64,000 nt of DNA from assembly GCA_021234155.1 (NCBI GenBank), contig JAJEKV010000002.1, positions 22,161,726-22,225,725 on the forward strand, read 5' to 3'. The stretch is from Isoetes taiwanensis. Lineage: Eukaryota; Streptophyta; Lycopodiopsida; Isoetales; Isoetaceae. The position numbers and the translations under genes were made by a program. The notes beneath the pieces were generated by a model, which saw only the letters and a list, made by a program, of their open reading frames with translations, was not told where the DNA came from and searched no databases. How positions within the stretch are numbered: position 1 is the first letter of the stretch; the number at the start of each line of letters is the position of its first letter. Below are positions 15,090 to 63,743 of the stretch, in pieces.

Positions 15090-15252
<163 letters not shown>

Positions 15253-15596
15253 GCATAGATAGGGTTTTTGTGATACTATATGGCGCATATGCTTGCTAAT
15301 AGTATAAAATTGGATGATGACCTTAGATGACATTGCAAAGTGCACAACCAAGGTGACGACATTTGACATTGCAAGTGGACTTTGTCGAGAAGGTTGATTC
15401 CTACCAGTCGTTTCTCATTGTCATGAGTAAATGAACTATAGAGCCAATGTGATGCATCGAATAGAAAAAGAAGAGTCTTTTTAATAGTGGATCAACAGGT
15501 GTACAAGACTTGATTACATGCAGGTAAAAGTGTTTCCTTTAGTAGAATGTCCACAAAAAACTGAATAGAATGAGCACTTATGCATTGTAAGCGAAT

Positions 15597-27756: not shown

Positions 27757-29213
27757 TCACCGATAACGCCGATGATCTTCAAGAAAAGTTTTCACTTGGG
27801 CCGTGCTGACTCTTCGCCCTAATAAGTTTCGGAGAACGCCCGTAGAGGAGCCTCCTCGGATGGCTGACACTAGATCTTCAACTGTTCGGTCCGTCATGTG
27901 TGCCACTGTCACTACTAGTCTTCCTTGGCAGAGATGTAGAATAGCGAAGTCAAAGATGCTGAGAGCCATAGACTGCTTCACTAAGATGAAGTGGTCGATT
28001 TGGTCGGTCAGCATTGCATGTCTCCCGAAACCTGAGAGTGCCACGAGCATCTGGACCGCTTCTTTTCCACGTGGGCTGAAGGCTCGTGGAAGACTATGAC
28101 TCTGCCGTTTATAAGGGTGAAAGGGTAGTACCCGAGTGCTTCGCCTATATGAGGAAGTGCTATCCCTATGTCTTGTGGCACTCGTCCAAATGCATGGTCA
28201 TGAAGTCTGCATGGTCCTCATGTAGCGATCGAAAGGTTGCAAGGTTAATCCCTCGAGGTGTAGTAGTTGATGTAGAGGATGTCGGCAAAAGTACTCTTGT
28301 GGTTTTGCCGCTGATCCCCATCCGTACTTGAATTGCTATGGACTTCTTGTCCAACATTGGACCATCTTGGAGAATCTGCCTCTTCTGATCCTGCTATAAG
28401 CCTCAATATCTGAGATGGTTTGCCCCGTGTAGCTTTTTGCTTCGCGGATTCCCTTGGAAAATCTTCTGCCTCCCTATAGATGAAACTATCCAAATCTTCA
28501 TGTTGCTGTAGCAGTGACAAGAGCTTGTCGGTTCTGTAATTTCGCTCTCTGCATTTCGAGAGATTCCTGATGTTCAAGAAAAGGTATTCTTGAACTTCGA
28601 TAATAACGGGGACAGGCTTGTGATGTCCATCCCTATCGGAGCAGCTATTCTTGTTGTATGTTGATCTTGAAGTGCTCCAATTCCTGCTCTGCCATATCCT
28701 GTTCTTCCTGGGAGTCTACGTCGATGAAGTCTTCATCTTCATCACTATGTTCTTCCTCGGTAAGGTCTCCATAGTCCAAAAGCATCTGTTCTTCAATCCG
28801 AGAAGCTAAAGGTTCGACATTGATTGATACATGAAGGGTTCATCTATGACGTTCTGGGTTGATAAGAATATGGATAATGCAGCATTGTACAAAAAGTACC
28901 TCATCTGCCCGGCAATCATTGTCATATAATCCGCCATGCATAAGACTTTATTGTATAAAACCCTGGCAATATTGGGGCACATGACTCTGAGCTGTCTGAA
29001 GAGAGTCCTTGGGTACAAAATTTCCTATGCAAAAGGGCACTTGACACAGACTAGAACCTACTTTCTGTTGGAATTCTAGCAAAATAAAGGGAGTTACAGC
29101 TAGGGTTGCTTGGACATCAAGTTCATTCTGAAAAAGATTATAGATTAGGTTGATGTCTACCTAGGATACATGAGATGATGTGCTGTACCATTCGATAAAG
29201 GAAGCAGTGCCAT
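27757..29213 (-). pseudogene. Protein X, decayed copy (module locus A)
   Basis: Translated pieces align along the whole length of the protein at 54254-55740. Near the start FIEWYSTSSHV matches FVQWYCNSEHI. Then YNAALSIFLSTQNVIDEPF (near 28850) matches PQAALAIFLHYQALNRTGEP, and the acidic centre DEDEDFIDVDSQEEQ (near 28720) matches its EEEEDYEEE. IGEALGYYPFTLINGRVIVF (near 28130) matches MGKALCYYLPSLTKGQIVVF, and ALSGFGRHAMLTDQIDHFIL matches ALSGFAAHSKLRENIDHIIL. The C-terminus, including HMTDRTVEDLV and a basic end, also matches. At least five frame changes occur. The start is the ATG at 29213, about 105 bp after a TATA box. Function is unknown. An H3-fold remnant lies 0.7 kb upstream on the same strand. 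Confidence 0.75.
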
Positions 29214-29934: not shown

Positions 29935-30515
29935 CTATCTATGTTTAATAAAACGTGCCAATTGCATGTCTCTCAGCATGCAAATGACCCGTCTCACATG
30001 CAAGGCACATGTGAACGTATCCTCAAACTGTTGAGCTACTTCCATCTCGGTTGCCTCTTGTAATGCCAGTAGGATATCATCATTCATGATGCACTTCATC
30101 TTGTCGAACTTTGCCAGAATTTCCCGAATAAATCTTGCAAACTTCCGTTCGCGGGATAAGACAACGCTAGCTCCACTGGTAATGATGAATCTCCTTCAAA
30201 GATCAGGAGTACAGACAGCTTCCTCCCGTACTTTGCTGGCTTCCTAGACAGCTCCGACTCCTCTGCTGGCTCTCGTAAGGGGTCTTCCTCAGTGTACTTT
30301 GACTTGTAGATATTGTAATACTTCTTGTAAGCGGCATGCATCTTCATTTTTTGTTTGTGTGTCGCCATTTTGTGCACTCTGTCTTCATTTAGGATGTAGG
30401 CGTCCAACTTCTTGCCTCCCTTCTTCCTTTCTGGGTCTGGCCATGCTGGGTAAGGTGGTGGAGGCGATAGCTCTCCCTCTTCTGCTTGCTCCTGCTGACT
30501 CGAAATGTCAGTCTC
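29935..30515 (-). pseudogene. Long-tailed histone H3-like protein, decayed copy (module locus A)
   Basis: The upstream part (30515-30250) gives ELSPPPPYPAWPDPERKKGG, then a Lys/Tyr-rich region with HAAYKKYYNIYKSK. It aligns with the Pro-rich and Tyr/Lys-rich linker of the protein at 62698-63743. After a frameshift near 30250 and one stop, the H3 core follows: KFARFIREILAKFDK, then ILLALQEATEMEVAQQFED, then CALHVRRVICMLRDMQLARF, ending at 29935. These match the canonical H3 positions PFQRLVREI, LALQEAAEAYLVGLFED and [20 protein letters not shown]. The tail start was not found upstream of 30515. It is clearly dead but shows that the linker and fold belong together. Confidence 0.8.
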
Positions 30516-30562
30516 ATTGGGGTCTCTAGTAGGTACCTTAAAATAGCATTTTGACTGCGTGA

Positions 30563-33730: not shown

Positions 33731-33774
33731 GTTCTGAGAATGTATGCAAGCAAGTATTGGACGAAGCAGAAGTT

Positions 33775-44800: not shown

Positions 44801-46306
44801 AGTGCTTACATCCCGCAATTGAAACTGAGATCAATTAACATTAGGGAGTTCTTAATTTTAAAAAGAAGGTAGACCAGTAACGGTACCAGAAAAACAAACC
44901 TTTCTTGATTTCTTGTGAAAAAATGCTGTGCTTTTTTAACGTGTTTGTTTTAGAGTGATTCCATATTATGGTAATCTTTCATAATATGATTTTTTGGAGG
45001 ATGACTTTTAATCATAACTCCTATATAGGCATAAGTTATCAGTCACTTGCAAATGAAAAAATAAAAGAAAATGAAAACTTCATTATTAAGGCTAATAGAC
45101 ATTTTCCTTAGATAAAGCAAGTTGTCTACTACTTATATTCAAAATTTTAGGTCAAAATTCATTTCCCTACAAAAGTTAGAGATTTGATTTGGAAATATCT
45201 TTCTGGAAACCAGTATTAGTTCATAAAAAAAGAAACAACAGTTTTGACTCTGTCATGTTCAAACAATTCTATCTCCCTTCTCAGACATCGGATTGAGGTG
45301 CAGTTTTTTGTGTTTTACTCTCTAACTCGTGAAAAAAATGAAAAAAATAATGAAAAAAATCATAAAAATCTTCTTACCGAGATAGTATTACTTTATCTAA
45401 ATGTGAAGCAAAACAAACTTGACTCCATTGCTTTTACCTAAGTGTAACTCTCATAAACGGGGACCAATAGATTTTAAGGTATTTTTCCCATGCAATATAA
45501 CTGCCAATAGATTTTTAGGTATTTTTCACATGAATATGACTGCCATATATTAACATGTAAGAAGGGTTTGACTGATTATTGAACCTTTGATTTTATATGA
45601 ATTTTAAAGCAAACAGTGCAAATGCACCTTTTCTCATACATTATGTGACGACTCTAGTGTTAAACCCTAAAGAGCAATGTACTGGTAAACCTGGCTATGG
45701 CACCCGCAGTTGAGAATGTAGGACCTGGCTATGGCGGTCTTCTGAAAAAAAGAATTTGAGCGGCGCCGCCATGAAGAGGCAAAGAAATATTTATGCCATA
45801 TAGAAATGACGTAATATACAAGTAATTTGCAGTAAGATTTATTACGTATCATATGAATCTTCGCATTCTCGCTTCCGTCAGCCAACATTCCTCTTGCTAC
45901 TAGGATATGTAATCTGTAGCCTGCAACCTGCTGCATACCATGTAATGTATTCTCCCATATCTCGTGCATGTCGGGAGTTAGTAAGAGAATTTGCAATCCG
46001 CCCTTAAGAGCTGGATAAATCGATAATTCGAATTTTGCTCGGATATATTGATTTGGAATTTCAAAAAAATTGCTCGTTAGACCATCATTCTTCCTCTCAC
46101 CCCTGACGCGAGTAGGATGTATTGGCAGTATCATTTTTCTAAGCTTTCAAATCCCTTAACCCATTTTTACATTTAATTGCTATCTTCCATACGAGTTAAG
46201 AATTCCAAAGAAATAAGGAAATTGAAACAAAACACTAATTATAGGCATTCTAAAGAAACGGTGAAATTGAAACAAACACAATAATCACTAACCTGAAGAT
46301 AGCTAT
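41820..46306. other. 4.5 kb AT-rich region without recognised genes
   Basis: No open frame with a recognisable domain. A diverged duplication is visible: a block at about 43760-43840 (CATGATAGGCAATATTTT onward) has a related block about 350 bp later (44100-44190). The phrase CTGGCTATGGCGG recurs at 42948 and 45727 and, with CTCTTGCTACTAGG at 42166 and 45888, hints at a second shared repeat. The minus-strand frames 42910-43170 and 45667-46134 are unassigned. Confidence 0.4.
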
Positions 46307-47863
46307 TGTGACGCTCCTTGCGCTATATACGACAGCCCGACGTATACATCGAAGGACCTTCCCCATCCAACGACACCCGTCGTATGGACCCTCTATCTAA
46401 CTCGCATCTGGGGTCCAGACGATCGAGTAGAGGACACATAGGTGTCATTCCGTCCCGTCCTCTATGGGTTCCCTATGTCAGCGGAAGCAAAATATATAAC
46501 ATAAGCACTAGCAATAATAACAACAGACTACCTCGAAGGGTAGTGATAATCCATCTAACCATGTCATCAAATACAACAATACAATGAATGCATCAAATAC
46601 ATCAAATAGAGGTTCCTACCCAGGGCTCAGACTCAAGGGGGAGTCGACTGACGGCTGGGGACCTCCAGATAGAACAGACCGAGTTATGGCAATGACTTGG
46701 GCTGGCAATAGACAATGGCTAGGGTTGACCACTCCATCCGCCCCTCCTGTGCATACTTTTCAGATAGGCTAAATCAGGCTCTGACGTGACTGTAACCTGC
46801 CGGAGACGTAATCCCATGGTATCACCCAACGAGACTACTCTGGGTTGCATCTCCCTGGTCCGATGAGGTAGGAAGGGTTGCATCTCCCCCTCCCGTAGTG
46901 CAATGGCTCCATCAGCAGCTAGAGGATCGTGGCGACACACGTCCGTACCCGACTGAACTCCCCAAAACAAGAGCCAAGCCGACACTTGCAACTCTTGAGA
47001 GTCAGGGCGACACCATTGACCCAGGAAGTGTCAGACCCATACCCGGTCTACACGAAGTGACCGACTATGAGCCTAGCCCGCTATGGGACCCCAGTAGCCG
47101 CGCTCAGCAGGGTCCTCCCTCCACTTTGCCACTGACCCCGTTGTGTGGTGCTCAGTCACTCCATAGCCTCCATAGCCAGGTGGGCTCTATGCACAGGCCG
47201 CATAATAATGGGAACTAGTGGGTCTAAACTAGGAGCATCATCCACTAGTGGCTATTAAGTCTCTACCCCCCTTCCCAATACACAAGAGGTGTAAATATGA
47301 GATCAACCAACATCATATCAACATAATCTTGATAATAAAAGAGAAGAACAACTAATCATAATCATACATCTAACCTATAGTTAGGGTTCATTGATTTGGG
47401 TTCATGTTCAGAACAATAGGTTCTAGAATGGCTCTACTGCAATACGAGAATCTATTTGAAATACCTGCTCCTGACGCGCTGCCGCTAATTCCCTGGTTCT
47501 CCATCTCTGGCAACTGTTGTTGCAACCCAGGCTGTCGAAGACGGTCTTCAAGTCGGAGCTCTGATCGCGAACTGGTGGGTCTGAGGTTGGTGGAGCCAAA
47601 AGTGGCTAGGGTTTAGGGTTTAGCCTTTTATATGTTAGGGTTTACATGAGTGCCACTTGGCTTCTATAGGTGCATCTATGTGGCGGTATGCCTATAAGGT
47701 GAGGCCATGTGGAAATGGCTTCTTACCTTAGGTTGGCTAAGTTATAGATAACTTAGTCATTACCCCCACATTGGTCGTATACATGTCTAGGGATGTAGAA
47801 AAGTATGGTGACGTGGCCGTAAAATATACGTACGTATGCCGTATATTTTAGGGAAACGTCACA
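46307..47863 (-). repeat. 3' LTR of the chromovirus
   Basis: A 1,557-bp block with inverted ends TGTGACG/CGTCACA. On the minus strand it directly follows a polypurine tract (47864-47876), as a 3' LTR must. It is GC-richer than its surroundings. Small open frames inside show no recognisable domain and are probably fortuitous. The matching 5' LTR is not found before the window ends. Confidence 0.8.
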
Positions 47864-47876
47864 TTCTCCCCCCCTT
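47864..47876 (-). other. Polypurine tract of the chromovirus
   Basis: On the minus strand AAGGGGGGGAGAA lies immediately before the LTR start TGTGACG, the expected priming site for plus-strand DNA synthesis. Confidence 0.85.
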
Positions 47877-48627: not shown

Positions 48628-49206
48628 TCACCTTGCCGAATCATTGCTGACGATGACCGTGGCGAGCTGGCCTTTGCATTGCTCCATAAACTGTGGGTAC
48701 TGCTTCTCAAGATCAGATTTAAGTACCCATGTCGCGTCTTCCACTGGCAAGTGTCTCCACTTGACCAAATATTGGAGGAACTGAGATCTCCTTGTTTTCT
48801 TATATGCCTTGTCAAGAAGAGCTTCTGAGACGATCTCAAGTTGTTCTTCGGTCATTTCCAACAAGGTTGGAGTCTCCAATATTTCCTCCGGATTAGGAGT
48901 ATGCTTTTTCAAAAGGCTTACGTGGAAGACTTTATGAACCTTCAAGTGGGTGGGGAGATCCAATTTATAGGATTGGTTACCTATTCTCTGAATAATTTTG
49001 AATGGTCCCGCCCACCTTGGAGCAAGCTTCTTGCAATTTCCGATTCTGAGCTTTGCTTGTTTAACTTTTATCTTAAGCCAAACATTATCCCCTACTTGAA
49101 ATTCTCTTTCGGTTCTATGCTTATCGGCTATGCTCTTTTGTCGACTTCTTGCTGCCAATAAATAGCCTCTAACTTCATCAACTAATTGCTGCATATCAGT
49201 CAACAT
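48628..49206 (-). CDS. pol: Chromovirus integrase C-terminus with chromodomain
   Basis: 192 residues. The integrase C-terminal (GPY/F-type) region reads [20 protein letters not shown], then [15 protein letters not shown] chromodomain (about residues 130-180) follows: [20 protein letters not shown], ending QYPQF. Chromodomains direct integration to heterochromatin. The frame overlaps the end of the main pol frame by 7 bp in a different phase, so a small indel split one original pol frame here. Confidence 0.88.
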
Positions 49207-51704
49207 TTGTTGAGAAACTTCAACCTTGTGTCTGGTGTTAGAGATTGATAGCCATAATTTATCATGAAGGGGAACATTTGCGAGGATTCCTGCTTGGTAC
49301 TGTTATATGCAAACTCTACCAAGTAAATATAGTCACCCCATTTTGACTGTTTATTCCATACATAGTTCCTCAACATGTCTTCTAATATTCGATTGGTCCG
49401 TTCCGTTTGCCCATCGGTTTGGGGATGATATGCTGTACTCATGGACATTGTCTCGATCGTGTTGAAGAAATCCTTCCAGAAGGCACTTATGAACTTAGGA
49501 TCTCTATCAGAGATGATTTCCCTTGGCATCCCATGCAATCTAAATATTTCCTTTGCAAAAAGCAAGGCGGTATCCAAAGCTGTATCGGTGGTTCGATACG
49601 GCAAAAAGTGAGCCATCTTTGATAGCTTGTCGACCACAACCATTAAGGCATCATGGCCTCTTGGTGTTCTTGGGAGTCCGGTTATAAAATCCATGCTCAC
49701 AACTTTCCATTTAGCATTTGGCACTGCCAAGGGTTCTAAGGTCCCTGGAATTCGGAGTTGGTCCGCTTTTGTTTGCTGGCACAATTGACACTGCCGAATA
49801 TAGTTGGCGATGTTCCTTTTCATGCTTGGCCAGAAGTAACTACTTCTTATCTTGAAGTAAGTTTTCATGAACCCCGCGTGGCCGGCTATTGGGCTATTAT
49901 GAGTATCATGAAGAATTAATTTCCTTACTCCCGATGCCTCTGGGACGCAAAGTTTGTCCTTGTAGTATAAAAGATTACCTTCCTTTTTATATCTTTTATA
50001 AGCTTCTTTTTCTTTGTCTGTCCTTGCTTCTTTGCAAAGACTAGCCCATATTTCCTTGAATTCCTTGCTTGAAGGCAAGACTTCTTCAATCTTTTTCCCG
50101 AATTCATTGGACAAGGTGGAGATGGCATTGCAATGCACTCGAGTTTCCAATGGTCGGCGAGAGAGTGCGTCGGCAACCACGTTTAATTTGCCTGGCTTAT
50201 AGACTATCTCGAAGTCATAATCTTCGAGGAATTCCATCCAGCGTCTTTGCCTCAAATTGAGGAGTGGTTGTGTGAAAATGTATTGGAGGCTCTGGTGATC
50301 AGTATCTAACTGAAATTTCCTACCAAGCAAATAATGCCTCCAAATACGAAGAGCTCTTACAACAACTAGAAGTTCTTGATCATGGGTTGGATAACGTTGT
50401 TCAGCGTCATTTATCTTCTTAGAATCATAGGCTACCACTCTTCCTTCTTGCATGAGAACTCCACCAGTTGCTACTAGCTTGTCCTTGTTTGGATCTGGTA
50501 GGGTGAGCACTGGTGCTGTTGTTAAGGCTTCTTTGAGCTTTTCGAATGAAGCTTGAACATTCTCTCGCCAATGTGCCCCCCAATCTTTTACCTTTTTATT
50601 CTTGGTAAGGTCCGACAAAGGAGATGCCCACTTAGCGAAGTCCTTTACAAATTTGCGGTAGTAACCTGCTAAGCCAAGAAAACTTCTTACTTCCGAGACA
50701 TTCTTTGGTGCTGGCCAATCCACTATGGCTTCTATTTTTACTGGGTCCGTTGAGATTCCCTCTGTTGTGACCATATGCCCCAAATATTCCACTCTACTTG
50801 TTGCAAAGTGACATTTGGAAAGTTTAGCGTACAAACGATGTCGTCTTAGCTTTTCTAATACCCTCCTCAAATGTACGACATGTTCTTCCATAGACTTGCT
50901 ATAAATTAGAATGTCATCGAAAAATATGATGACAAATTCATCTAGAAAGTCCTTGAAGATGTCATTCATCAGGCGCATGAACGTTGCTGGAGCATTTGAT
51001 AGACCAAAAGGCATGACTGTGAACTCATAATGCCCGTGCCGCGTTCTGAAGGTGGTCTTATGGATATCCTCCTCCTTGATTCTTATTTGGTGATAACCAG
51101 ACCTTAAATCAATCTTTGAAAAGAGCTTTGCTCCTTGGAGCTGGTCCATTAGATCATCCGCTCTTGGCAATGCATATTTGTTCTTTATCGTTTGCTTGTT
51201 GAGCTGACGATAGTCAATGCACATCCGTAGACTTCCGTCTTTCCTCTTGACGAAGAGGATGGGTGCACCAAAAGGTGATACACTTGGCCTAATGAACCCA
51301 AGCTCTAACAATTCTTGCAGTTGCTTTTTGAGCTCAGCTAGCTCAGGTGTGCTCATCTTATAGGGGGCTTTGCTAATTGGTTTTGCATCTGGTGCAAGAG
51401 TGATTTCACATTCGACACCTCTGTAAGGCGGTAATTCTCGGATTTCATCCGGAAATAGGTCATGAAATTCTTTAATTAACTTGCCAATTGCCCTAGGTAA
51501 TTGTTTCAAATTTTCATCCTCCTTCTTATTCTTTTCGTTTGGGTCTATGGCTTCTAGCCTAAGGATATAATCAACCTCATCCTTGGAGATGCATTTACGC
51601 AATTGCTTTAATGACATGCACTGCATTATTGAGGCAATTTTCTTACCTTTGACCAAAAAACGTTTGCCCATTAGGTGCCATGATTGATATCTCGTGTTTA
51701 TCAC
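49200..51704 (-). CDS. pol: Chromovirus (Ty3/gypsy) pol: RT, RNase H, integrase
   Basis: 834 residues on the minus strand. RT (about 110-290): [45 protein letters not shown] and the catalytic FFDDILIYS. RNase H (about 380-510): [18 protein letters not shown] and ADALSRRP remain, but the segment that should hold the first catalytic Asp (TDAS) is deleted, leaving [11 protein letters not shown]. Integrase (about 590-830): an HHCC finger ([14 protein letters not shown], then [10 protein letters not shown]), Asp in [10 protein letters not shown], Asp in SDRDPKF and Glu in TDGQTERTN, so the DDE triad is complete. The protease side is in another frame because of a shift near 51690. The RNase H deletion makes self-replication unlikely. 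Confidence 0.93.
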
Positions 51705-51772: not shown

Positions 51773-52427
51773 TTATTTAAGTCTATCTAGGGATGCTCCC
51801 AGGGATTGGGCTTTGTGGCTAAAGGTTCCACGACAGTTTCGCAATCTTGAGAATTCTATGGGCGCCTCAAGTTTGTTATATTCAGGTTAGTTCTTTGACA
51901 GATTGGATTTACAGGAAGGGATTGTGATGATAATGCCGAGCTAGGGACATCCAAATGCGGAGATATATTATGCACCGGACTTTAGAGAGGAGTTTGGCGG
52001 CTGGGCTTGTTCTAAGCCTAGCCAACTTGAGGATGACCGTATTTTCCCAACAATGCAGCATTGCATCAAGATCCCTCTTAGTGTCGGACGCGGATCGTAG
52101 AGGGCAGTGAGCAGTGGCAGCTCTTTGGATCAGTGTGGCAGGCTTTTCTACAAAAATATGTCTCTTTATCTGGTATATTTTCTGTTATTTGTGAAAGTTT
52201 TTGTGCTTAATTTTACCAAGCCATAACAGGGCTATCTGATTTGCTAAAATATTTCCAATCTAACTCTTAAGGAGTTCTGAATAAGCATAGCTTATGGGAA
52301 GCGAAGATGTTGAGGTATGCTCCTGTAGTAACTTCCCATATTGTTGATGCATGTACTCTTTTATTCTGATAATATAAAAATGGCACCTTCATGGTGTCAC
52401 CTTGCGTCCAAAAAAAAAAAAAAAAAA
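51773..52427 (+). mobile_element. 5'-truncated LINE inserted in the chromovirus, with TSD and poly(A)
   Basis: About 640 bp on the plus strand ends in a run of 17-18 A after CACCTTGCGTCC. It is flanked by copies of ATATTTTTCAATATC (about 51758-51772 and 52427-52441), a target-site duplication of about 15 bp. The duplicated target encodes the DIEKY residues of the host protease region, which reads on as YDLIVGMEFLKPAKA beyond the insert. The insert carries only decayed LINE 3' sequence. It is younger than the chromovirus copy. Confidence 0.85.
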
Positions 52428-52435
52428 TATTTTTC

Positions 52436-52813
52436 AATATCCATGACTTCAGTCCCCATGTTCAAATTTGCCCCGCTCAATGTTATATCAAAGTTCACTC
52501 TTTTTCCTTTTGTATGGCGTATTGCTCCACTTGCCATGCTCACTGGTCTGGGATTTGACTTGAGGATCTTTGTTTTGAGTAGCACTGCCATTCTAGGAGA
52601 TGCGAAGTTGCGGGAGCTTCCTGTGTTAATTAGGACTCGATAGGGTTTATCATCTATAATGCCCTCTGCTGAAATGACAGTAGATTGACTCTCCTCATTT
52701 TTGGTTAATTCTACACTCACCTTCGATGAAATCTTGGGCCTCCTCCTCGTCGACGTCAATGTCTGTTGGGGAATCCCATCCTTCAAGATCTGCCATAGCT
52801 GCTTGCATGACAA
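52436..52813 (-). pseudogene. Chromovirus protease region, split by the LINE insertion
   Basis: The frame carries YRVLINTGSSRNFAS, the retroviral-type aspartic protease site, but with Asn-Thr-Gly in place of the usual Asp-Ser/Thr-Gly. It continues to TEVMDIEKY, where the LINE interrupts it. The remaining part of the domain lies on the other side at about 51695-51772 ([19 protein letters not shown]). It overlaps the end of the gag frame in another phase, which may be a normal gag-pol shift or a mutation. Confidence 0.8.
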
Positions 52814-53282
52814 AAGGACACTCGTGAGTGCGATGTCCTGGTTGGAAACACCTGAAGCACAACTTTTTCTTTATACATTCGTCCCTTTTTTCCTTAGGTA
52901 TGCTGTTCAAAAATTGCTTCACAGACTTTCCCGCCGAGGGACCTGCTGTATAAGGTTCCTTAAATGGTGTCTTTTTGTCATTTTTACCCTGGTACTGTTG
53001 TGCTCTTTCCTGTGCAGGGGTTGACGCTTTTTGGTTGAAGCTACCTGTTGCTTTCCCTTTGTCGTAATACGACTGTCTTTGCGTTGGGTTTTGCGGTGTC
53101 TCCTCTAGACTCAAAGCCTTATCCTCTGCTTCCCCTACTGTCCGGGGGTTTATTGCACGGACTAATCTTTTGATGTTGCTATTAAGCCCCTCTATATAGC
53201 CATCAACTGCCTGACTTTCTGATATCCTGGGAACATTTAACCTTAACCTCATAAACTCCTCTGTGTATTTGGCTACAGACAA
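52695..53282 (-). CDS. gag: Chromovirus gag, C-terminal part with zinc knuckle
   Basis: Starting within the gag domain (VAKYTEEFMRLRLNVPRI, then VDGYIEGLNSNIKRLVRAIN), the frame runs to a CCHC knuckle CFRCFQPGHRTHEC (near residue 145) that binds RNA. An acidic C-terminus follows. The N-terminal gag half is in another frame at 53307-54068; the two are separated by 24 bp containing an in-frame stop and a shift. Confidence 0.88.
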   Translation of the reverse strand: MSVAKYTEEFMRLRLNVPRISESQAVDGYIEGLNSNIKRLVRAINPRTVGEAEDKALSLEETPQNPTQRQSYYDKGKATGSFNQKASTPAQERAQQYQGKNDKKTPFKEPYTAGPSAGKSVKQFLNSIPKEKRDECIKKKLCFRCFQPGHRTHECPFVMQAAMADLEGWDSPTDIDVDEEEAQDFIEGECRINQK

Positions 53283-53306
53283 ATTCCCTTGGTCCAGGCG
53301 GTAGAA

Positions 53307-54068
53307 CTATTGTATCTGACGGCTAGTATGTGAGCGTGGCACGCAATGCTTACGGAAAGCCTTGCTGAAGGTTTTGAATCGACAATTGTTTCTCCTTAGC
53401 CTATTTGACTTTGCATACCCCTTCCACCATATGCGCGCTGGTCCTATCAAGTTGGCGGTTGCTACCTTGCCAATATCTTTGTCCTTCATGTCATATGAAT
53501 TCCCGAATTCTTCCATCTCATCTAGCCAAGCTTCAGCTTCCATTCCTGATCTGTCTTTCCCTGAAAATTGTCCCAGCTTGCGTGTTTTCCAGACATTGCT
53601 CATTGCACTGTCTATTTTCTTTTGATAATCCTCTGCTCTGCGGTGCTTGTGCCTGCTATGTAAGCTGTCTGAACTGCTGTCAGAGTCACTATCTGAGCTA
53701 TCGTCCGAGCTGTCATCTGAGCTTGAACTCGAAGAATTTTGGTATCTTCTAGTCCTTCTCTTTCTCTTGTTGTGTCCGGACGACTGTGCGGCAGGTTGTG
53801 GTTCTGGCTGATTGTTGAGTTGATGTTCCTCTTCCTGAAGAGGTGGTTGTTGTGGCCCATACTCCTCCCCTCGAATGAGTGGGATGACAATCTGTACCAA
53901 TTCGCGCATCTGCCTGCCCATTTCTACCAGGCGTCTGTTTATCTCTGCTGGTGTCATCTCGACCTCCTGTGCTTCTCGGCCGAATAAGTTTCTTGGTGCC
54001 CAATTAGAGGCTTGGCCTTGACTTCCTTGATTCTGTGAAGTGGTTGTGAAGTTCCTGGCTGCAAACAT
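53307..54068 (-). CDS. gag: Chromovirus gag, N-terminal part
   Basis: 253 residues. A Gln/Pro-rich start is followed by a basic patch (NKRKRRTRRYQNSSSSSS) and a Ser/Asp run (residues 115-140). The gag core begins with VWKTRKLGQFSGKD and EAEAWLDEMEEFG, typical of Ty3/gypsy gag. It is separated from the C-terminal gag by a frame change near 53300. Upstream, on the same strand and only 186 bp away, lies the stop of protein X. No LTR or primer binding site intervenes. Confidence 0.85.
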   Translation of the reverse strand: MFAARNFTTTSQNQGSQGQASNWAPRNLFGREAQEVEMTPAEINRRLVEMGRQMRELVQIVIPLIRGEEYGPQQPPLQEEEHQLNNQPEPQPAAQSSGHNKRKRRTRRYQNSSSSSSDDSSDDSSDSDSDSSSDSLHSRHKHRRAEDYQKKIDSAMSNVWKTRKLGQFSGKDRSGMEAEAWLDEMEEFGNSYDMKDKDIGKVATANLIGPARIWWKGYAKSNRLRRNNCRFKTFSKAFRKHCVPRSHTSRQIQ

Positions 54069-54253: not shown

Positions 54254-55740
54254 CTAGTGCTGACGTCGACGTTCGGGTTTGAAGTGCTCCTTAATGTCTT
54301 TGAGTTTGAGGCCATGGCCGACGTTTCGTAACATGTTCCATGTCGAATGTCCTTCAAGTGCTGGAGCTATCTTTTTTCGGGGCAAGTCATGTGTCATGTG
54401 TCCATCTCGAAGGTATCCCGAGCAAAATCAAGATAATGCAAGGCCACAGATCTCCTAATTAGAATTATGTGGTCAATGTTTTCGCGAAGTTTAGAATGAG
54501 CCGCGAAGCCGGAGAGTGCTGATAGCAAGTAAACTGCCTCTTCTCCTCTGTGGCTAAATTGCTTGTGAAAAACTACTATTTGGCCTTTAGTGAGCGAAGG
54601 AAGATAGTAGCATAAAGCTTTTCCCATGCCGGCTGCCGATCCGGACCCTTTCCTCATGGCTGCCTGACCCAGTATTTCTATCGCCATCAAGTCATCATGA
54701 TCCTTCTTCATCGATATGGCACTATCAAGGTTAATGTGACAGCCCCTCAGAGTTTGGCCCCATGATGAGGTGGCTTGCTTGGGTTTGGCTATGCTCCCAC
54801 TCTTAAACAGTCTTGCTTGAATTACCTGAAACTCATCCTCATCTGGAAGATCTTGGTGCTGCATTCGATGCTTGATAAAATCATATGCTTGTATGTCGGT
54901 GATGTTCTGTGTGGTATGGGTCTCCTTTTCAGCTATCTCTCTTGGAAGCTCCTGCTCTGAATAATCGATGAAGTCATCGTTGTAAGCATCAATGATGATA
55001 GCCAGGAGTTCATCCAAGCGGAGACCTTGATCAATGCAGTACGGTAGGTGTAAGATATCATCTGCGAAAAGGTACTCCTCCCCTTCGATAATAATTGGCG
55101 TAAGAGATGTGATTCCCACTTGGGGAGCTGTTGCCTTTCTTGGGAGGTCTTCTGTGGTCTTGATGTACTTCTCCAACTGTTTGGCTAATCTGGGTTCATT
55201 TTCGAAGTCATAGACTTCTTCCTCATAATCCTCTTCTTCCTCCTGATGTTCCGCCGATGGCCCCTCGAGAAGGTTCGACTTGATGTGCATTTCTTCTAAA
55301 TATGGCCTAGCTGCCCTCGTATTCAATGGTGCTAGATCAAGGGGTCGCACTGACGGTTCCCCTGTCCTGTTTAATGCCTGATAATGCAAAAAGATTGCTA
55401 AGGCTGCTTGTGGTGATAAATATTTGTGCCCTTGAACCTTGCATGTCATGTATGTGGGCATTCTTTCTGTCCTTTTTATAATTGTTTTCCTTGATATATG
55501 GCTCAGTGCTGCCGTGATAGCTTTTAGAGAGATCCACGTTCCGATTTGTCCTTGAAGTCTTACTTCCTGGCTTTGGAGCTCTTGATTGTATCGAGCAAGG
55601 ATATCTTGATAATAGAGTGTCCTGGATATTGTCTCATTCAAATCAAAGGTATGCTGAAATACTTGAAATACCTCGTCCATTGGTGCTTCCCTGATATGCT
55701 CTGAGTTGCAGTACCATTGAACAAATTCTGTAGGCGCCAT
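54254..55740 (-). CDS. Protein X, unrecognised roughly 490-residue protein (module locus B)
   Basis: I do not recognise this family. From the ATG at 55740 (MAPTEFVQWYCNSEHI) the frame runs about 448 codons to a stop at 54394. A frameshift there hides a C-terminus that continues to 54254 and matches copy A (MTHDLPRKKIAPALEG, basic end RRRQH). Visible parts: a helical N-terminal half, a hydrophobic-helix block (SPQAALAIFLHYQALNRTGE), a strongly acidic centre (EEEEDYEEEVYDFENEP) and a conserved C-terminal block (GKALCYYLPSLTKGQIVVFH, then ALSGFAAHSKLRENIDHIIL). No zinc finger, protease, polymerase or transposase motif is seen. A TATA box and telo-boxes lie about 105-145 bp upstream. The ORF start further upstream, at 55854, overlaps the TATA box and is not used here. 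The acidic centre next to a histone-like partner invites a histone-chaperone idea, but that is speculation. Confidence 0.75.
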
Positions 55741-55841
55741 GGAACTATACAAGGTGCGAATAAAAGCTGTGTAATGGAATAAGGAGTATGAAAAAAATCG
55801 CCTAAGTGAGCTTCTTGTGGCTTGAAGTAGGAGGTGAAGGA

Positions 55842-55886
55842 TATATATACTCAAAACGGCGTTTAGGGTTTCATTCTAAACCCTAA
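55842..55886 (-). promoter_or_regulatory. TATA box and two telo-boxes of protein X copy B
   Basis: On the minus strand TATATATA (55842-55849) lies about 105 bp before the ATG at 55740. Upstream are AAACCCTAA (55862-55870) and, on the opposite strand, a second AAACCCTAA (55878-55886). The TATA-to-ATG distance matches that in copy A. Confidence 0.65.
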
Positions 55887-56004
55887 TTTTTCTAATGTTT
55901 ATGTTTGGTTATGTTGAGTGGCTCTTGGGGCTTGGAATTCACATAATCCCTTAGTGCCCCTTTATTTTAATTGTTTGTCATTAATATGGCAAGTTAGTCT
56001 AGGC

Positions 56005-56032
<28 letters not shown>
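56005..56032. repeat. (A)28 run
   Basis: A plus-strand A run following AGTCTAGGC. It may be the poly(A) tail of an old retroposon and one edge of the DNA that split module locus B. No matching duplication was identified. Confidence 0.8.
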
Positions 56033-56036
<4 letters not shown>

Positions 56037-59000
56037 GGCTAATCACAAGTGGCTTGGCACAAGGTGCCATTAAAGATTAAAGGAGGTCGTTCAAACCTAT
56101 ATAAAATCCAACAGAGTATAGTGTGAGGAAAACAAATAAAAATAAAGGGTTAAACTAGCAGAACTGCAGGGTTGGGAAGAAGGCTAGGCAGCCGGGCTCA
56201 TCTTGGTTTTTTCCGTGGTGATTCGGATCGGCGGCGATCTTCTTAGGTTTTTTTTTCTCTTCCGCCGGTATGCCTGCAAAGGCTTGGTTGCCTTTGTGTA
56301 ATGTTAGGGAGATTTAAGAATTGCGCGTAATGCACGTCCCTACTACTCAATCATGTCTAAATAAGCATTTGGTAGGAGTATGAGCATTTGACAGGTTGAG
56401 TGGGTAGAGCAAAATTTGCATGGCAAGAAATTTATAATTTTTTTGGATAATCAAAAGGCTTCTGCTTTTGGATGAATACCTTCCCTGGCTAACGTTTTGA
56501 AGAAAACTTTAATCTGTACATCACAATCTTTGCTTTTGCTTTTAGTTATTTAGAAGAACCAAAAGAGCACTTCTAGTTTATGATATGAGCTTTTGAGATT
56601 GGCCAATGGAAAGAAAACTAGCTTTTTGGGCACATAAATGGCGAAAACGAAGTACAGACAAGTAGTTCTCTTTCTTCTTCCTAGTATGTAAGATCATTCT
56701 CGAGGTTCCTGAACAAAGCATGAAGAGTTATGCACTCTGACAGTCTGCTATATATGCCTCACACAGTCTGCCATTTTTCCTTTCTACATGAATGTACTTA
56801 GCCTTTTGGATACTTGTACAATCCTTGCACTATAATGATGTAATAAATTCATAGAAAAAATTTGTGGCCTTTTAACGGACTCTGCACAGAGTAAGGAACC
56901 AACCAGTTAGCAAGAACTGGCCCAAGGCTCTAACCCTTCTTCTAGTTTCTCGTAGTTTGGTGTGGATTTTTCTATTCATGAATTAATCCATGAGTTAATG
57001 CTTTGTAAATTTCCTTTTATATGAAACACGGAAATGCACAAAGTAGTGTCAGAGAGAATAAATATAAATTTGAAAGATAATAATAAAAGGATTAAAAATG
57101 AATGTTCATAATATAGTACTTCTTAGATAATTTATTCAATCCAAGAACTCGTGCTACGTTTTGGAGTTTTGGAGCAGTTAATTGCTGCATTCTACATAGG
57201 AGACAGCATATGGTTCTTGCCTAAAAATGAAGTATGGGATATTGATCTGCAGTTGATTCCACATATACTTTTCTAATAGATATGTTCTTTAATATGAGGA
57301 TTTTTTTTTCGAGTCTTATTGTCATAGCTTGACTTGGTCCAGCTGTTTGGAAAGCATTATTATGGAAGTACTAATGGATGTCATACTATTCTTGAGGTGG
57401 CACACATAACAATTTACATTGACTTCTATTGTATTCCAATCATTTTTATGAGTACAAGATAATACATATACAGAATGTGAATTGAAGGAGTCCAGTACGA
57501 TCACTCCTCGGTTCTACATGAGGAGTTCAGGTTGATTTTTGAAAAGGTGCCAACCACTTAAATGACATCTCTGAAGCTTGAAGAACGTGTCGTGTATAGA
57601 AGCAGCTCCAAAGGATAATTTTATGTTGTATTTCTGCTCATTGCCAGTTGCATCTGGATCTGTAATAAACATCTTGAATGAGCATCATGTGCATGCTTAA
57701 GTGCTTTGTTAGATATGACAAATGTCGACAAACTGTGGGATACATGCCAATGAAGATGTTAACTGAGATGCATTAAATTGATACAGTTTAAATCTAATGT
57801 GACAAAAGACCATATACTGAAGTAGAATATGTTCATTTACGAAGACAAACGTGCACAAAAATATTAAGAACGTCTTTTGAACTCAACAAGGAAAAGTTAT
57901 CTTTATGTGTACATTTAGGGAGGCCGTCGTAATGCACACTAACATTCAGACCATCTTCTGAACTCAACAAGGAAAAGTTAACTTTATGAAAACTTAACAG
58001 CAGACTATAAGTTAGCTATAATATGCTCCAAGGAGTCTTGACCTGTTTGAAAATTACAACAAGACAATAGAACACGAAACAAGAGGTCAAGAACATTAGG
58101 TCCTAAGAGGAAAATCCTGAGTTCAATATTTGGATTCTTAAAACTCAATCAGATATGATTGTTGCAATTGGTATTCCTAGAAACAAAGATTCAATAAAAT
58201 ATGACCATTGGTCATTATCTTCTGAAGCATCCTTTGCACTTGCATGGAGAAAACCATTAAACTAAATGGTTCAAATTAATCAATCTGCACATCTATTAAT
58301 ATGGATAATCTGTATATTATATAGTTATACTTTCATATCTTAGCCAGAAAATTTACCAGGTTGTCAATGGTAATTCAAAGGGGTGCCTAGCTGCAACAGG
58401 CAGCATTTATGTATGAAAACTCAACTAATCCCTTGGCTGGATGATCAGTTTGACCATTGTATTCTAAGTTTCCATGTTCATTTGAATTAATGAGACTGTA
58501 AAAAATAGCATGGTAAGCGCTGTAATTGTTTACTACTACAACTTTACTACATTATCCATCCTGGAAAAATGGTTCAGGCCTGTATATGATTTTAATACCT
58601 CATCTTAAAAGAAAGAGTTCTCGATATATTTGTAACATTTGGATATGTTATATCAAAGCCACAGGTGATGGTACACCTTTACATTATTGCAGACAGTTTG
58701 AATGTCAATTTGCATAGCCCCATATTTGAGAAGGTAATAATGCTACCAAGGGCTGCTGACAGGATCATGACGGACAAAAACTACAAGTGAAATGTTTCTG
58801 TATAAGCAATGAAAAAACACATGGGTAGAAGGGCTGCTGTGAGACAGATCTTATAGCTGTACTACATGGCAAGATATGTATAGAGAATGAAAAACTAGAC
58901 GCCACAAATTGATTGACGCCACAAATTGATTTTCCACCTTTCCTATTCAAAAATCACGAAAATTTTAAAATCAGCCCTAAGATCAGTTACTTACCAGAAT

Positions 59001-59880
59001 TTGTCTAGGTTCGTAACATTCAGATACCAATTTCTCCTGTCATATGAGCAGAGGAAAAGATAAAGCACTGCAGTAATACGAACAGGGAGAAGCATTACAA
59101 AACATCATAGATTTGAGAGGGAATCAACAAGCAGGGGATTTCTGAAGTTTAGCGCCCTACTGGTTGTTGTGCTGATGAAAATGCTGACGGAGTTGAAAAG
59201 GATCTGTAGCTGCTCGGCGAGTTGGGGCCGCTACTGTGCCGAAGTCGAAGAAATGGAATGAAAAAAAATGGCGAGCGAAAAAAAAAAGCCTCCATAGCCG
59301 GCCGGGACGCGCCGCCATAGCCAAGGCGAGCGCCAAGATCAAGATCGAGCGCCAAACTCCTTCTTGGGTTTTCTAATTTTCATGGCCGTCCGATGCGAAA
59401 TTAAGAAATCTAATGGTTGAGATTAAAAATAGCTGACGTGGCACGACACGTGGCATAGCTAGGAATGCAGGAAATCGGGCAAGGGGGGTTAGGCAACCCT
59501 GCTAATCAAATGTGAGTCGTAGTAAAGAAGGCATTAATTCCCCCGCATTAATTCCCTATAATGCCAAGGAGCAAAATTGATGTCAAAAAGAACGAAAAGG
59601 TTATCTGTTATATGTTATATGCAAGAAAAGGGCATTGCCCTGCTAAATGGCGAATTTGAAAGAGACGGTTTAGGGTATGGTCGAGCAGAAATGAAGGAGA
59701 ATATCCGAGGCAGTGGTGGACTCGGCTGCTCCTCGCGACACACCCCGCGCCTGGAGCTTAGGCGAATGTTTGGCAGGGTGTTTGGGCGCGGCATGCGTCG
59801 CCTCTGCTGTTATTCTGCTGAATCCCCTTCTATTTTTGCAGGTCTTGGCGAATCTCACTCTGTGTTGCATATCTTTGCCG
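56033..59880. other. AT-rich stretch, no gene recognised
   Basis: A direct duplication of about 35 bp (GAACTCAACAAGGAAAAGTT at about 57880 and again about 79 bp later) and a 17-bp tandem duplication (GACGCCACAAATTGATT, 58896-58931) are visible. A GC-rich minus-strand island at about 59150-59360, with small open frames, could be a first exon or promoter of an unseen gene. Nothing more can be assigned. Confidence 0.35.
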
Positions 59881-60025: not shown

Positions 60026-60789
60026 TGCCGCGCCAGAAAGGTCCTCGAAGGTTTGGGTTGAGGCCAGGGCGCGGCATGAGTCACCCTGTGCCATGTTTCG
60101 GCTTATTCTGTCTGCCTATCTATGTTTGATTCAAACAAGTCTACTTCTGCTACAACTAGATTTTTACAGTTATGATTAGGAGTTGGGTAAGAAGCGTCAT
60201 ATTTTCGGCTTGGGTATGTTTCAAGTTCCTACAGACTCGAATGGCGTCCTATTTCCAGCTTTGCTATGTTTTAAACTATGTTATAATCTGGACTTGTCAC
60301 TAAATATATCTTCGAGCTTCTTTTTTTTTTTTTCAATTTCGGCCTCCTAAGGATCTTCTTGCCACAGATTTAGCTGCAATGACAGTTTCAAGTAAGTCTA
60401 TACCGGCTGTTAATAAGTTTGTTAACTAAATTTCCAATGGAGTTTAACTACAGGCCAAGCTATTATTGCTTATATTCTACGTGTTCAAGCTGTTAACATT
60501 GAGTTATTACAATTTTATATTACTCTAGATTAGTCTCTACTCAATACCAGCAGCTGGATTTAGCACTAAAGTCTATCAACAGTTGAGCACAGCTGATGAT
60601 TGTAACGGCTTAAGTACAATCTGTTAACACAATATAATGTTTTAAGCTCATTCTATTTTACGTTCACTCCCATTGAATATTTATCTGGTATCACTCATAT
60701 CTGGTATCACTCATATTTATCTGGTATCACTCATAGTTAAAATACTATTCTATAAGCGTTAGAAAATTTAATATACCATATACCAAAAT
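60026..60789. other. Gap, nothing recognised
   Basis: AT-rich DNA between the 72-bp duplication and the LINE, with a short triplication of ATCTGGTATCACTCATA at about 60680-60740. Confidence 0.45.
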
Positions 60790-61875
60790 TTAATGTATGG
60801 GAAGAGAATGGACGTCCCTTGGCATTAGTTCATCCTCGCATCTTTAAGAAATGGAGAGACCATGGGATCTTAAAACTGCAGCATCTTTGGGAAAACGATA
60901 GATGGATCTCCTGGATGGAATTTAGACTCAAAGTGCATAGAGCAGGGGAGGGTGATAGAAAGATACTACGAAAGATTCTAGGTACTGTTAAGCTTCTCTC
61001 AGGGTCTACTGGTCCTGAGGAAAAGTGGTCCTGTGCAGGTAAGGAGACATACAATGTTGCAAGTATATATCGGGCCCTTTGTGATGACTCCCCTCTTAAA
61101 GCAGAGGCTATGAATGGAACAGTGGCTAAGCTCCTCTTAGCAAACTCCTGGAAAACCTTATGCTCTAGGAGAATACAATTTTTTAGATGGGAGGCTCTCC
61201 AAGGAGGTCTCAACACTAAAGTGAAGCTGGTCCATAGAGGAATTGTGTCTTCAGACCTATGTCCTCTGGGGTGCTAGGCTAGCGAATCTCTTTCACACCT
61301 CTTCTTCTGTCCAAGAATTACTGAGTTCTGGTTTTGGGTATGCCCTATTATGAGACTGCATATGCATCAACTTCGATGGCCGAATGTTGTTATGATCTCA
61401 GACAGAGATTGCATTGACGCCTCCCTGGTTAGTGTGGCTCTCTGGATTATATGGCGACATCGGTGCGATGTCACTTTGGGGGGGAAATCTATCTCTATTG
61501 AGAAACTTAAGAGTCTTTTTAATAAGGAAGTTGCTTTAATGGCATTGTCCCACCACAGGAAAATGGGGATGAGTTACAATAGGGGATTGGACAGAATTGG
61601 TAAGATTGAAGGATTTTATAACTACTTTAAGTGCTATTGGATGAGCTCTGAGGACCCAGACTTTCATGATAGGTCTAATGGTGGAACAGTTTGAGTTTAG
61701 TGGAGAAAGCAATCTGAGCAACTGACCAGATAGGGTCTCTCTACCATTATGTTGTTGTGGAATAGGACTTCCCTTAGTACGCACATCATGATGCATAGAG
61801 AACCCATATAATAGCCCTAATGCTTCCTATTTGTCCCATTGGGGACTCTCTGTATCTTTATTATTATTAATAATA
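60790..61875 (+). pseudogene. L1-type LINE 3' fragment with zf-RVT domain
   Basis: The frame from 60819 carries the plant L1 zinc-binding reverse-transcriptase C-terminal region: AGKETYNVASIYRAL, then RRIQFFRWEALQGGLNTKVK, then LCPLGC. The normal continuation follows after a stop (SESLSHLFFCPRITEFWF, then SLVSVALWIIWRHRCDVTLG). A 3' UTR with CCCATTGGGGACTCTCTGTA and a (TTA)n/AATAAC tail ends near 61875. It is 5'-truncated and inactive. Confidence 0.85.
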
Positions 61876-62526
61876 ACAAAAAACACACTCTTACCCTGGT
61901 CAAAATGGCCCATTACAAGGAGCACATCAACCCCGTGTTAGCCCGGGGCCCACAGCTCTACCTGCGTTCCCAGCTGCCCCTGAAAAAGCGCAGGCTCATT
62001 GCCTCCATTCGCACAGGTGCCCACCATCTTCGCGATCGAGGCGGGCGGGTGGATTGGGGAGCCCGCCAGACCGGGCTCTGTCGGTCTTTGTCAAGCGGGT
62101 GCCGTTGAGGATGAGTCTCACACTTTCGAGTTGCCCGGCGTTGGTCGGTCGGGCCGGATACGCCCCTTTAGTGCGGCTGGGCGTGCCCTTGCATTTGGCG
62201 ATGAACACACCGTCGAAGACGTGCCACGGGGTCATACATCCAGAGGTACCGGACCTGCGAGGTCACCTTTGCCCCCTTTGGTTGTCCCGACGACTAGGCA
62301 CTGAGGGGTGGTGCATATTTGTATATATTGGGATGTTTACGCATTTTATATGATTAGTACGGTTTGTCGGCCATTGATTTCGCCACGGTTTTTCCCTCGA
62401 AAACCCTTCGGGGCGGGGGTTTTTTAATCCGGGCAGTAATCCGCTTGCTGCGTTTTTGTATTGGGTCCCATAGACCGATTGGTCTCCGTGGACGATAAAA
62501 GTAACTTCCTTCCTTCCTTCCTTCCT
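61876..62526 (+). pseudogene. Second LINE 3' fragment with short tandem tail
   Basis: Pieces in two frames give YLRSQLPLKKRRLIASIRTG, then LCQAGAVEDESHTFELPG, the terminal zinc-finger region of a non-LTR element of the same type as at 23148-24108. The 3' UTR (CCCTCGAAAACCCTTCGGGG, then GGTCTCCGTGGACGATAAAA) ends in (CTTC)n. It follows the L1-type fragment in the same orientation. Confidence 0.8.
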
Positions 62527-62556
62527 CAAAAAAATAAATAAATAAATAAATAATAA
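62527..62556. repeat. (AAAT)n microsatellite
   Basis: Six or so AAAT units follow the LINE tail and mark the edge between the inserted DNA and module locus B. Confidence 0.85.
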
Positions 62557-62697
62557 CTTTGTAGAAGCACTATAGCTTTACAATTTTATGGAAACAAGGT
62601 GATTTTATAGATTCCTAAGCAAAGTTTAATACATAGTCCTTTAATGTAGAAGAACATTTAAACATATAAAACGAACACCTTTGAACATAAACATTTA

Positions 62698-63743
62698 CTA
62701 ATAATTATGACAAGATTTCATGATTCTGTAACTCTTCAAAAATAATCCAATATATATATTTTCCTTCCGTATTCGTTTTGCCAAATTCATGTCCTTCGGC
62801 ATAACAGTGACTCGTTTTGCGTGAATAGCGCAGAGATTTGACTCCTCAAACAACTGACACAACTCTGCCTCAGCTGCTTCTTGACAAACCCTGAGCATCA
62901 TAGGGGTAACCCTATATTGCGTCGTAAATTCCTGCATAATTTCTCGCACTAGCCTCTCGAAGGGGGCTCTTCGAATCAAGAGATTTACGCATTGTTGAAA
63001 ATGCCTAATTTCTCTTAGGGCCCTGGAGTGCTTTGAGTTTGGCCCATGCTTTGCCGGTTTTTTCGGCTCCTCCGGTCGAGGTGGGGGTTTTCGAATATCC
63101 GCTGGAGGTCTTCCTCCTTTTACAAATCTGGGAATCTTCAGTGTGCTATACCAATGATTATAGGCAACCCATTGTTCCATATATGCACGGTAATCTTGCA
63201 ACTTCCTCCGGTATTCCCGATCCTTCTGGAGACTTAATGGTCTCTCCCCTGCTCTGTATTTCTTATCTGATTTCCCATGGGTAGGCCATTTCGGATATGG
63301 TGGTGGCGGTGCTATCACTTGCTCTGGGAGATTTTGTTCTGTTTGCTCCTGATGTCCTTGATCACGAATTACTAGACTCAAGTTACCATACCTATCAAGG
63401 CGGCGTTTAGATCGTCTCTCCCGTGCAATTGACTCGTCTTGTTCCCGAGTCCTCTGTGGCCATGTGTGTTACTTTTCTCTTACCCCAGCGTACGTCCCTC
63501 CTTTTTTGCGATTCTGAGTCCTCTCCCTGCTGCGATTCTTCTTGTTCTCGTGATTCTGACTGCTGTTCTTCTGACGATGACTCCGCATAATCTACTAATA
63601 CCACCGTCTCGTCTTCTTGTGAACTCCGTTCGTCGGATGATTCTTCGCTCTCGCTTCTTGGATGTTTCTCAGGGTAAATCTGCTTGCCTATGCTTACGTT
63701 CACGAGCTTGGTATTTCCTGGCGGTGGCTTTTGTACGTGCCAT
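62698..63743 (-). CDS. Long-tailed histone H3-like protein (module locus B), two frameshifts
   Basis: The ATG at 63743 opens [20 protein letters not shown], closely matching the canonical H3 tail start MARTKQTARKS with Lys4, Arg8 and Lys9 kept. After a stop at 63669 the next frame, +1, encodes an acidic Ser/Glu-rich stretch ([36 protein letters not shown]). A second +1 shift near 63400 leads to a Pro-rich (PPPPYPKWP) and Tyr/Lys-rich linker. The last 110 codons are an H3 fold: [72 protein letters not shown], plus 20 extra residues. Loop 1 has canonical H3 length. H3 normally has about 136 residues; this locus spans about 348 codons. Histone H3 forms nucleosomes with H4, H2A and H2B. The frameshifts probably make this copy dead, unless hidden splicing or sequence error explains them. 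Confidence 0.88.

Follow-up and report, generated by a model that had tools for sequence, protein, structure and literature searches.

Genes for histone H3-like proteins have been described from transposable elements of fungi. According to the accessible part of the original report, hAT DNA transposons of Pyrenophora tritici-repentis carry an H3-like gene, H3L, which has insertions in its N-terminal tail and matches neither H3 nor CenH3 completely, together with another ORF of unknown function; 26 nearly identical copies and ESTs are reported (PMC3538342). From Pseudocercospora fijiensis and relatives, hundreds of H3-like copies in hAT elements are known, RIP-damaged, mostly truncated and, in the portion of the study available, taken as captured host sequence (PMC6710886). 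Among plant LTR retrotransposons, additional ORFs are carried by, for example, Grande, RIRE2 and Retand, found more frequently in the stretch from pol to the 3' LTR, as stated in the accessible sections of a review on such elements, in which the word "histone" is absent (PMC7264820). Among the papers listed from the open-licence PubMed Central literature (a corpus without preprints), titles and opening lines of abstracts did not reveal any LTR retrotransposon with a core histone gene, and an H3-bearing retrotransposon is not mentioned in the available main text of the Isoetes taiwanensis genome paper (PMC8566536). Within the literature covered, in part as excerpts, the closest precedent for the locus described here is the H3-like gene of the fungal hAT DNA transposons.

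With the latter, so far as the accessible report describes them, the I. taiwanensis elements share a transposon-borne H3-like gene, an insertion in the tail, a companion ORF and many copies, but they differ in being plant LTR retrotransposons of two diverged families, in the 224-276-residue linker and in showing measurable purifying selection (PMC3538342). In contrast to the P. fijiensis copies, as characterized in the available text, some of the Isoetes copies are in one frame and conserved (PMC6710886). Similar to Grande, RIRE2 and Retand, extra conserved genes are found beside gag-pol, whereas in Isoetes these genes precede gag and one of them encodes a core histone, judged against the accessible part of the review (PMC7264820). 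Finally, the elements resemble group II chromoviruses, which are Ty3/gypsy elements having an integrase C-terminal chromodomain in which the first cage residue, and usually the third as well, is missing, and for which an interacting factor in plants is stated as not found; in contrast to the Isoetes elements, an element-borne histone gene is not mentioned for them in the sections available (PMC3350952).

The H3-like locus and the element around it

The DNA analyzed here, referred to as the window, is a stretch of 64,000 nucleotides from contig JAJEKV010000002.1 of I. taiwanensis. Its H3-like gene belongs to a retroelement arranged on the minus strand in the order H3-like gene, inserted DNA, 486-aa ORF2, gag, pol with chromodomain and 3' LTR:

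62698..63743, minus strand, broken H3-like gene (three reading frames with stops)
63743-63672, minus strand, tail frame of the H3-like gene (stop after 24 codons)
63748-63407, minus strand, acidic linker in a second frame (ORF reading)
63381-62698, minus strand, linker 2 and H3 fold in a third frame (ORF reading)
60372..62640, no strand assigned, first interruption of the element, located downstream of the H3-like gene (tblastx collinearity with locus L002; limits approximate)
60819-61277, plus strand, ORF within this first interruption, presumably LINE-like (ORF list)
55964..59727, no strand assigned, second interruption, between H3-like gene and ORF2 (tblastx collinearity; limits approximate)
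54394..55854, minus strand, ORF2, 486 aa, no Pfam family (ORF list, Pfam)
52695..54068, minus strand, gag with zinc knuckle, in pieces 53307-54068 and 52695-53282 (tblastx, Pfam)
52427..52693, minus strand, protease region (similarity to the protease part of L037)
49200..51704, minus strand, reverse transcriptase, RNase H and integrase (Pfam RVT_1 1.1e-38, RT_RNaseH 2.8e-26, Integrase_H2C2 5.8e-19)
48628..49206, minus strand, integrase C-terminus with chromodomain (Pfam Chromo 1e-09, 38.6 bits, cut-off 25.1)
46307..47864, minus strand, 3' LTR, ending CGTCACA at 46307 (LTR comparison)

The gag assignment is based on a tblastx match of 87.6% between positions 53654-53172 and the gag part of a structurally complete element elsewhere in the genome (L036), the Ty3_capsid and zf-CCHC Pfam matches in 52695-53282 being below their cut-offs. 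A partial 5' LTR located just outside the window (L038, 223-711) is 97.75% identical to the last 489 bp of the 3' LTR (window 46305-46793). In the chromodomain, the middle Trp is kept and no aromatic residue is present at the positions of HP1 Y24 and Y48 (by eye against the HP1 motif), which we take to be the group II pattern.

Translations, Pfam and PDB matches confirm the order of tail, long linker and H3 fold, running from 63743 to 62698 on the minus strand, that had been proposed in a first-pass annotation made from the sequence. The fold gives a Pfam Histone match of 100.9 bits (7.5e-29, cut-off 26.4), a second Pfam Histone match is at 1e-27, and the closest PDB chain is an H3 (1p3b_A, 9.9e-31). 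Within the linker, an acidic part comes first and a Pro/Tyr/Lys-rich part second. The idea of a single frame for tail, linker and fold fails in the window itself, where three frames with stops are needed, but holds elsewhere, as 11 ORFs in one frame show. Because these 11 other loci hold tail, linker and fold in frame, the architecture is not an assembly artefact, as had been argued before, and the absence of any other one-frame copy, named as one of the findings that would speak against the fusion, did not materialize. Nor is splicing required, since other copies are read in one frame; a spliced gene as well as separate genes for tail and fold were dropped as models. The window copy itself cannot be read in a single frame.

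CENH3 is distinguished from H3 by a longer loop 1. The alignment of the fold with H3 is ungapped through this loop, so that the earlier remark on its canonical length stands, whereas the kinship with CENH3 hinted at from the start of the fold is unsupported by loop 1, the sole criterion applied. CENH3 and its counterpart CENP-A have a divergent H3 fold and a divergent N-terminal part. The element protein resembles them in both respects but differs in the canonical loop 1 length and in belonging to a retrotransposon present on many contigs.

A second, decayed copy in the window, for which the same order of linker and fold had been put forward, was located as follows:

29944..30560, minus strand, decayed H3-like gene, the second in the window (fold not in the frame of linker 2)
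27823..29205, minus strand, decayed ORF2 just downstream of it (tblastx matches to ORF2 of L036)

It is matched at 38% identity over 73 aa (E 1.8e-10), and linker 2 with the motif PPPPYPAWP does precede the fold (about 30560-29944, minus strand), but in another frame, and a MARTK tail was not seen upstream.

Complete elements and one-frame copies

The genome contigs (1110 contigs with 1,658,258,908 bases) were searched with the 227-aa ORF of the window, 150 out of 11,004 candidates being scored. At contig C1105 (L036/L037), an element of about 13.1 kb was found, the LTRs of which are 97.5% identical over 1638 bp, have the ends TGTGACG...CGTCACA and are flanked on both sides by the target duplication GGTCA. 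The 5' LTR is followed by the primer site TGGTATCAGAGC (checked in this one element), presumably complementary to initiator tRNA-Met, and then by an H3-like ORF of 369 aa, ORF2 of 504 aa, gag, protease, reverse transcriptase, RNase H, integrase, a truncated chromodomain and the 3' LTR. The Pfam matches from gag to integrase are in Ty3/gypsy order over L036 and L037 and spread over several frames, and the Chromo match in L037 reaches 18 bits, under the cut-off of 25.1, where the frame ends early. As gag and pol are split over frames, this element is complete in structure but not in its coding capacity. Likewise, an element at C1034 (L034/L039) has LTRs 94.95% identical over 1664 bp with the target duplication GAGCT on both sides, and a third one (L035/L040) did not show a 3' LTR in the 7 kb examined, bringing the combination of LTR pair, TG...CA ends and target duplication to two out of three elements. 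Upstream of the H3-like gene, a 5' LTR is present in five of six long loci, the exception being L032. In this Ty3/gypsy LTR retrotransposon (chromovirus), the H3-like gene comes first; it sits within the mobile element and is amplified with it. Having LTRs and gag-pol, the element is not a hAT-like DNA transposon with terminal inverted repeats. The initial view of a plant H3 variant gene must accordingly give way to that of an accessory retrotransposon gene located between 5' LTR and gag.

By eye and without a shuffled control, TATA-like boxes TTTAAATA are discernible before the H3-like gene in all five aligned long loci of the family represented by the window element (family 1), and TATAAAA before ORF2 in three out of three loci, again by eye and without such a control. 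These boxes suggest that the H3-like gene and ORF2 may have separate transcripts. A bacterial promoter scan of the region was set aside as uninformative for a plant.

The linkage between both genes is far above chance. Comparing the 150 scored H3-like hits with 88 scored ORF2 hits, 26 of the former are followed on their own strand by an ORF2 hit at most 12 kb away, at a spacing of 0.6-2.6 kb in 24 of the 26 pairs, and a single pair is in reverse order, the expectation by chance being about 0.05. Among the matches listed, 62 of the 88 ORF2 hits are without an H3-like hit upstream, as are 9 of the 17 ORF2 hits closest to that of the window (at least 61% identity), and a part of the elements may be without an H3 gene. 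From a collection of 5.8 billion proteins, 7997 candidates were scored, and at the sensitivity of that search they did not include a relative of ORF2. In the collection of viral contigs, relatives were found neither of ORF2 nor of the H3-like protein at the sensitivity applied there.

Uninterrupted ORFs of 338-385 aa, starting with MARTK and including the whole fold, are present in 11 of 38 loci examined: among the 30 best-ranked loci (L001-L030) there are 6 of them, and among 6 longer loci picked for long open frames there are 5. The elements at C1105 and C1034, with their 5-bp target duplications, account for two of these 11. An open frame of at least 340 aa surrounds 85 of the 150 scored hits. 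Counting stops inside the matches (80 of 150 hits) was dropped as a measure of decay, because the aligned stretch can pass a natural stop, as it does in L002. In the one-frame ORFs, 10 residues belong to the H3 tail, the next 139-192 to an acidic linker (net charge -9 to -21), a further 84-86 to a basic linker (net charge +12 to +20) and 99-103 to the fold. Hence, tail and fold are 224-276 residues apart, in contrast to at most about 40 residues, including K14-K36, in H3. The tail reads MARTK[QAS]T[AY]RK in all 11 ORFs, corresponding to the ARTKQTARK of H3, with the MART[K/R] start given by construction. For family 1, the claim of an H3 tail with K4 and K9 kept is borne out, K9 being present in 22 of the 23 MARTK starts listed.

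Synonymous differences are near saturation throughout the 11 ORFs (pS 0.63-0.68). Non-synonymous ones differ by region, with pN rising from 0.091 for the tail (first ten residues) and 0.094 for the fold to 0.185 for linker 2 and 0.304 for the acidic linker, values from pairs that are not independent and that favour the fold and the first five residues, since the ORFs stem from a protein-similarity ranking and a MART[K/R] start was required. With this bias in mind, the amino-acid sites of tail and fold vary far less than the synonymous ones, and both parts appear conserved across diverged copies.

The fold is identical to H3 at 53-56 of 99 positions (about 55%). All 11 one-frame folds keep C110, H113, A114, R116, D123, L126, R129 and I130, which we take to be positions of the H3-H3 four-helix bundle, of H4 pairing and facing chaperones. 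Equally invariant are R63, R69, R72, K115, T118, M120 and K122, all but the last presumably DNA-facing in H3. K56 is replaced by Q and F84, presumably a minor-groove contact, by V in 11 of 11 folds, K79 is kept in none of them, R49 in 9 and R83 in 10. Positions 87, 89 and 90, which we assume to steer H3 chaperones, match neither H3.1 nor H3.3. Where canonical H3 has its lysines between K9 and the fold, the element protein has the acidic and then the basic linker; K4 and K9 stay. Because of the exchange at F84 and the incomplete retention of R49 and R83, nucleosomes with the element H3 may be unusual or may not form.

AlphaFold2 modelling of the 227-aa ORF resulted, at modest confidence, in the histone helices plus a long helix in linker 2 (mean pLDDT 67.8, pTM 0.35), and the top Foldseek matches of this model are nucleosomal H3 chains with low TM-scores (best E 2.0e-06, TM-score on query 0.30-0.31). 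The linker helix comprises about 30 residues (residues 51-81 of the ORF, window 63231-63139, minus strand) in pLDDT blocks of 80-87; the stretch is recognizable in other copies, and Pfam does not name a domain in it.

Below an E value of 0.001, the protein database gave 1922 matches to the window fold and 1906 to the 369-aa ORF. The linker motifs PYPxW and GPNSxHxR are absent from the best 120 proteins of either set. Among these best 240, 122 of the 129 proteins of at least 200 aa are tandem H3 concatemers, including the top apparent relatives from tick and whitefish (P0001 and P0002), which were dropped for this reason. Another database protein, P0003 (174 aa, source ENA), is H3-like with a MARTK tail and a Trp/Tyr-rich insertion in the tail.

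A second family and the H3 tree

Searching the genome with canonical H3 (150 of 9002 candidates scored) revealed 15 host H3 loci at 96-97% identity and a further 135 hits at 69-85% identity. A sample of 15 out of the latter (L056-L070; C1018:19365198-19371530) represents a second family. In 7 of 13 loci scanned (L058-L070), one-frame proteins of 408-421 aa are encoded, in which a linker connects an N-terminal region, starting with MA[NIP]TKS or a similar sequence, to a fold much like the H3 fold of the host. The MARTK tail is missing from family 2; some of its linkers show an ARKS-like motif. Downstream of the fold, an ORF2 relative is found in 11 of 15 loci (21-30% identity, E down to 1e-13), starting within about 300 bp of the fold end in 6 of the 11. 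At L060/L071, a frame comes next whose gag shares 59% identity with the family 1 gag over 157 aa; part of a protease and a piece of integrase lie in it as well. As reverse transcriptase was not found in the 3 kb examined, this copy may be deleted at that gene. The LTR and primer site of family 1 were not found in the 15 family 2 loci with their 1.5-kb flanks. The order H3-like gene, ORF2 and gag-pol characterizes the clade; for family 1 the whole order has been demonstrated, for family 2 a part of it. In L057, ORF2 and gag of family 1 run straight into an H3 fold and ORF2 of family 2, an arrangement that reads as a nested insertion or a recombinant between both families.

In the seven family 2 ORFs, pN and pS are 0.012 and 0.464 for the fold and 0.099 and 0.613 for the N-terminus, the ranking by H3 similarity favouring the fold. 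For a tree of folds, 12 sequences from family 1, 7 from family 2, 4 of the 15 host H3 loci and 8 other H3s were used; CENH3 was not part of the set, and a ninth H3, P0017, was left out. Family 2 (support 100) is placed beside a host H3 sequence (support for this pairing 69). Family 1 has a long branch to itself (support for the split 100). This topology is compatible with one H3 capture as well as with two, and long-branch effects are likely. P0003 is placed between ordinary H3 and family 1, possibly by long-branch attraction.

Possible roles of the element histone

Transposon silencing works through marks on histone H3. We predict that the element H3 pairs with host H4 and probably takes the place of host H3 over element DNA, which would give nucleosomes short of several silencing lysines, a proposal with about even odds of being right. 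In this scheme, the H3-like gene and ORF2 would be expressed, each from its own TATA-like box, the element H3 would combine with host H4 to an H3-H4 tetramer, and this would be deposited on the element's own DNA. The tetramer is predicted because four-helix-bundle, chaperone-facing and most DNA-facing residues are kept. Nucleosomes with the element H3 would be without tail K14-K36, K56 and K79 and would bear a long charged arm. The element might benefit by resistance to H3K27/K36-dependent silencing or by a more open, K56ac-like nucleosome. It is the predicted tetramer and the lack of these lysines that make us favour a replacement histone. The retention of K9 in family 1 is a poor fit to a histone built simply to escape H3K9 methylation.

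Somewhat more tentatively, and with slightly less than an even chance of being right, the elements could be thought to maintain a private chromatin, in which an element H3 with re-engineered tail forms nucleosomes with host H4 on element DNA. Families 1 and 2 would then have split an ancestral H3 between them, the former keeping an ARTK-ARK tail on a diverged fold and the latter a near-canonical fold under a new N-terminal domain, and this would be the first selfish core histone known from a retroelement.

Alternatively, the protein could serve as an integration tether. The deposited element H3, methylated at K9, would be read by the chromodomain of the element's own integrase, so that new copies land beside old ones. 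This is rather unlikely but retains some weight, as family 1 conserves K9 and a chromodomain is present in the window integrase; moreover, the interacting factor of plant group II chromodomains is stated as not found in the accessible text (PMC3350952). The model is weakened by the missing cage residues at Y24 and Y48, as judged by eye, and by the lack of a MARTK tail in family 2.

Less probable still is a soluble decoy, acting outside nucleosomes by occupying H3 methyltransferases or H3-H4 chaperones and thus starving the silencing machinery. A tail mimic on a long acidic linker and the intact chaperone-facing residues would suit such a protein, and the acidic stretch could even act as a built-in histone chaperone. 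On the other hand, a decoy would need neither most of the DNA-contact and H3-H3 residues, which are also kept, nor the fold of family 2 that is nearly free of amino-acid substitution.

We consider it improbable that the gene is a mere passenger, derived from a host H3 messenger transduced once and spreading with the element without benefit to it. Plant retrotransposons are known to capture genes, as the available part of the review states (PMC7264820), and many copies are indeed broken, with only the 6 of 30 best-ranked loci reading through from tail to fold. Nevertheless, pN is far below pS over a deep divergence, with constraint differing by region, and the H3 gene has been retained in two diverged families. 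Origin from a host gene of the CENH3 type or for a variant H3, copied by neighbouring elements, can hardly be reconciled with the data, since a fold divergent enough for CENH3 is outweighed by the position of the gene inside LTRs with target duplications, by a loop 1 without insertion and by the separate host H3 genes.

If the favoured reading of a replacement histone is true, a retrotransposon with its own selected H3 would represent a direct counter-move in the silencing conflict and, at the same time, a natural experiment on the H3 residues that silencing needs. The parallel with the H3-bearing fungal hAT transposons suggests that H3 may have been taken up by mobile elements more than once.

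Apart from the H3-bearing element, apparent Ty1/copia remains were noticed by eye at 12014-13869 (minus strand; gag zinc knuckle and integrase-like ORFs), and a long simple repeat at 15037-15369 (minus strand) translates into YLSI repeats. A 1234-aa ORF at 33757-37461 (plus strand) resembles a long PPR protein, and PPR-like fragments are located at 21161-22456 (plus strand), both again by eye; such ORFs are in line with a plant of heavy RNA editing.
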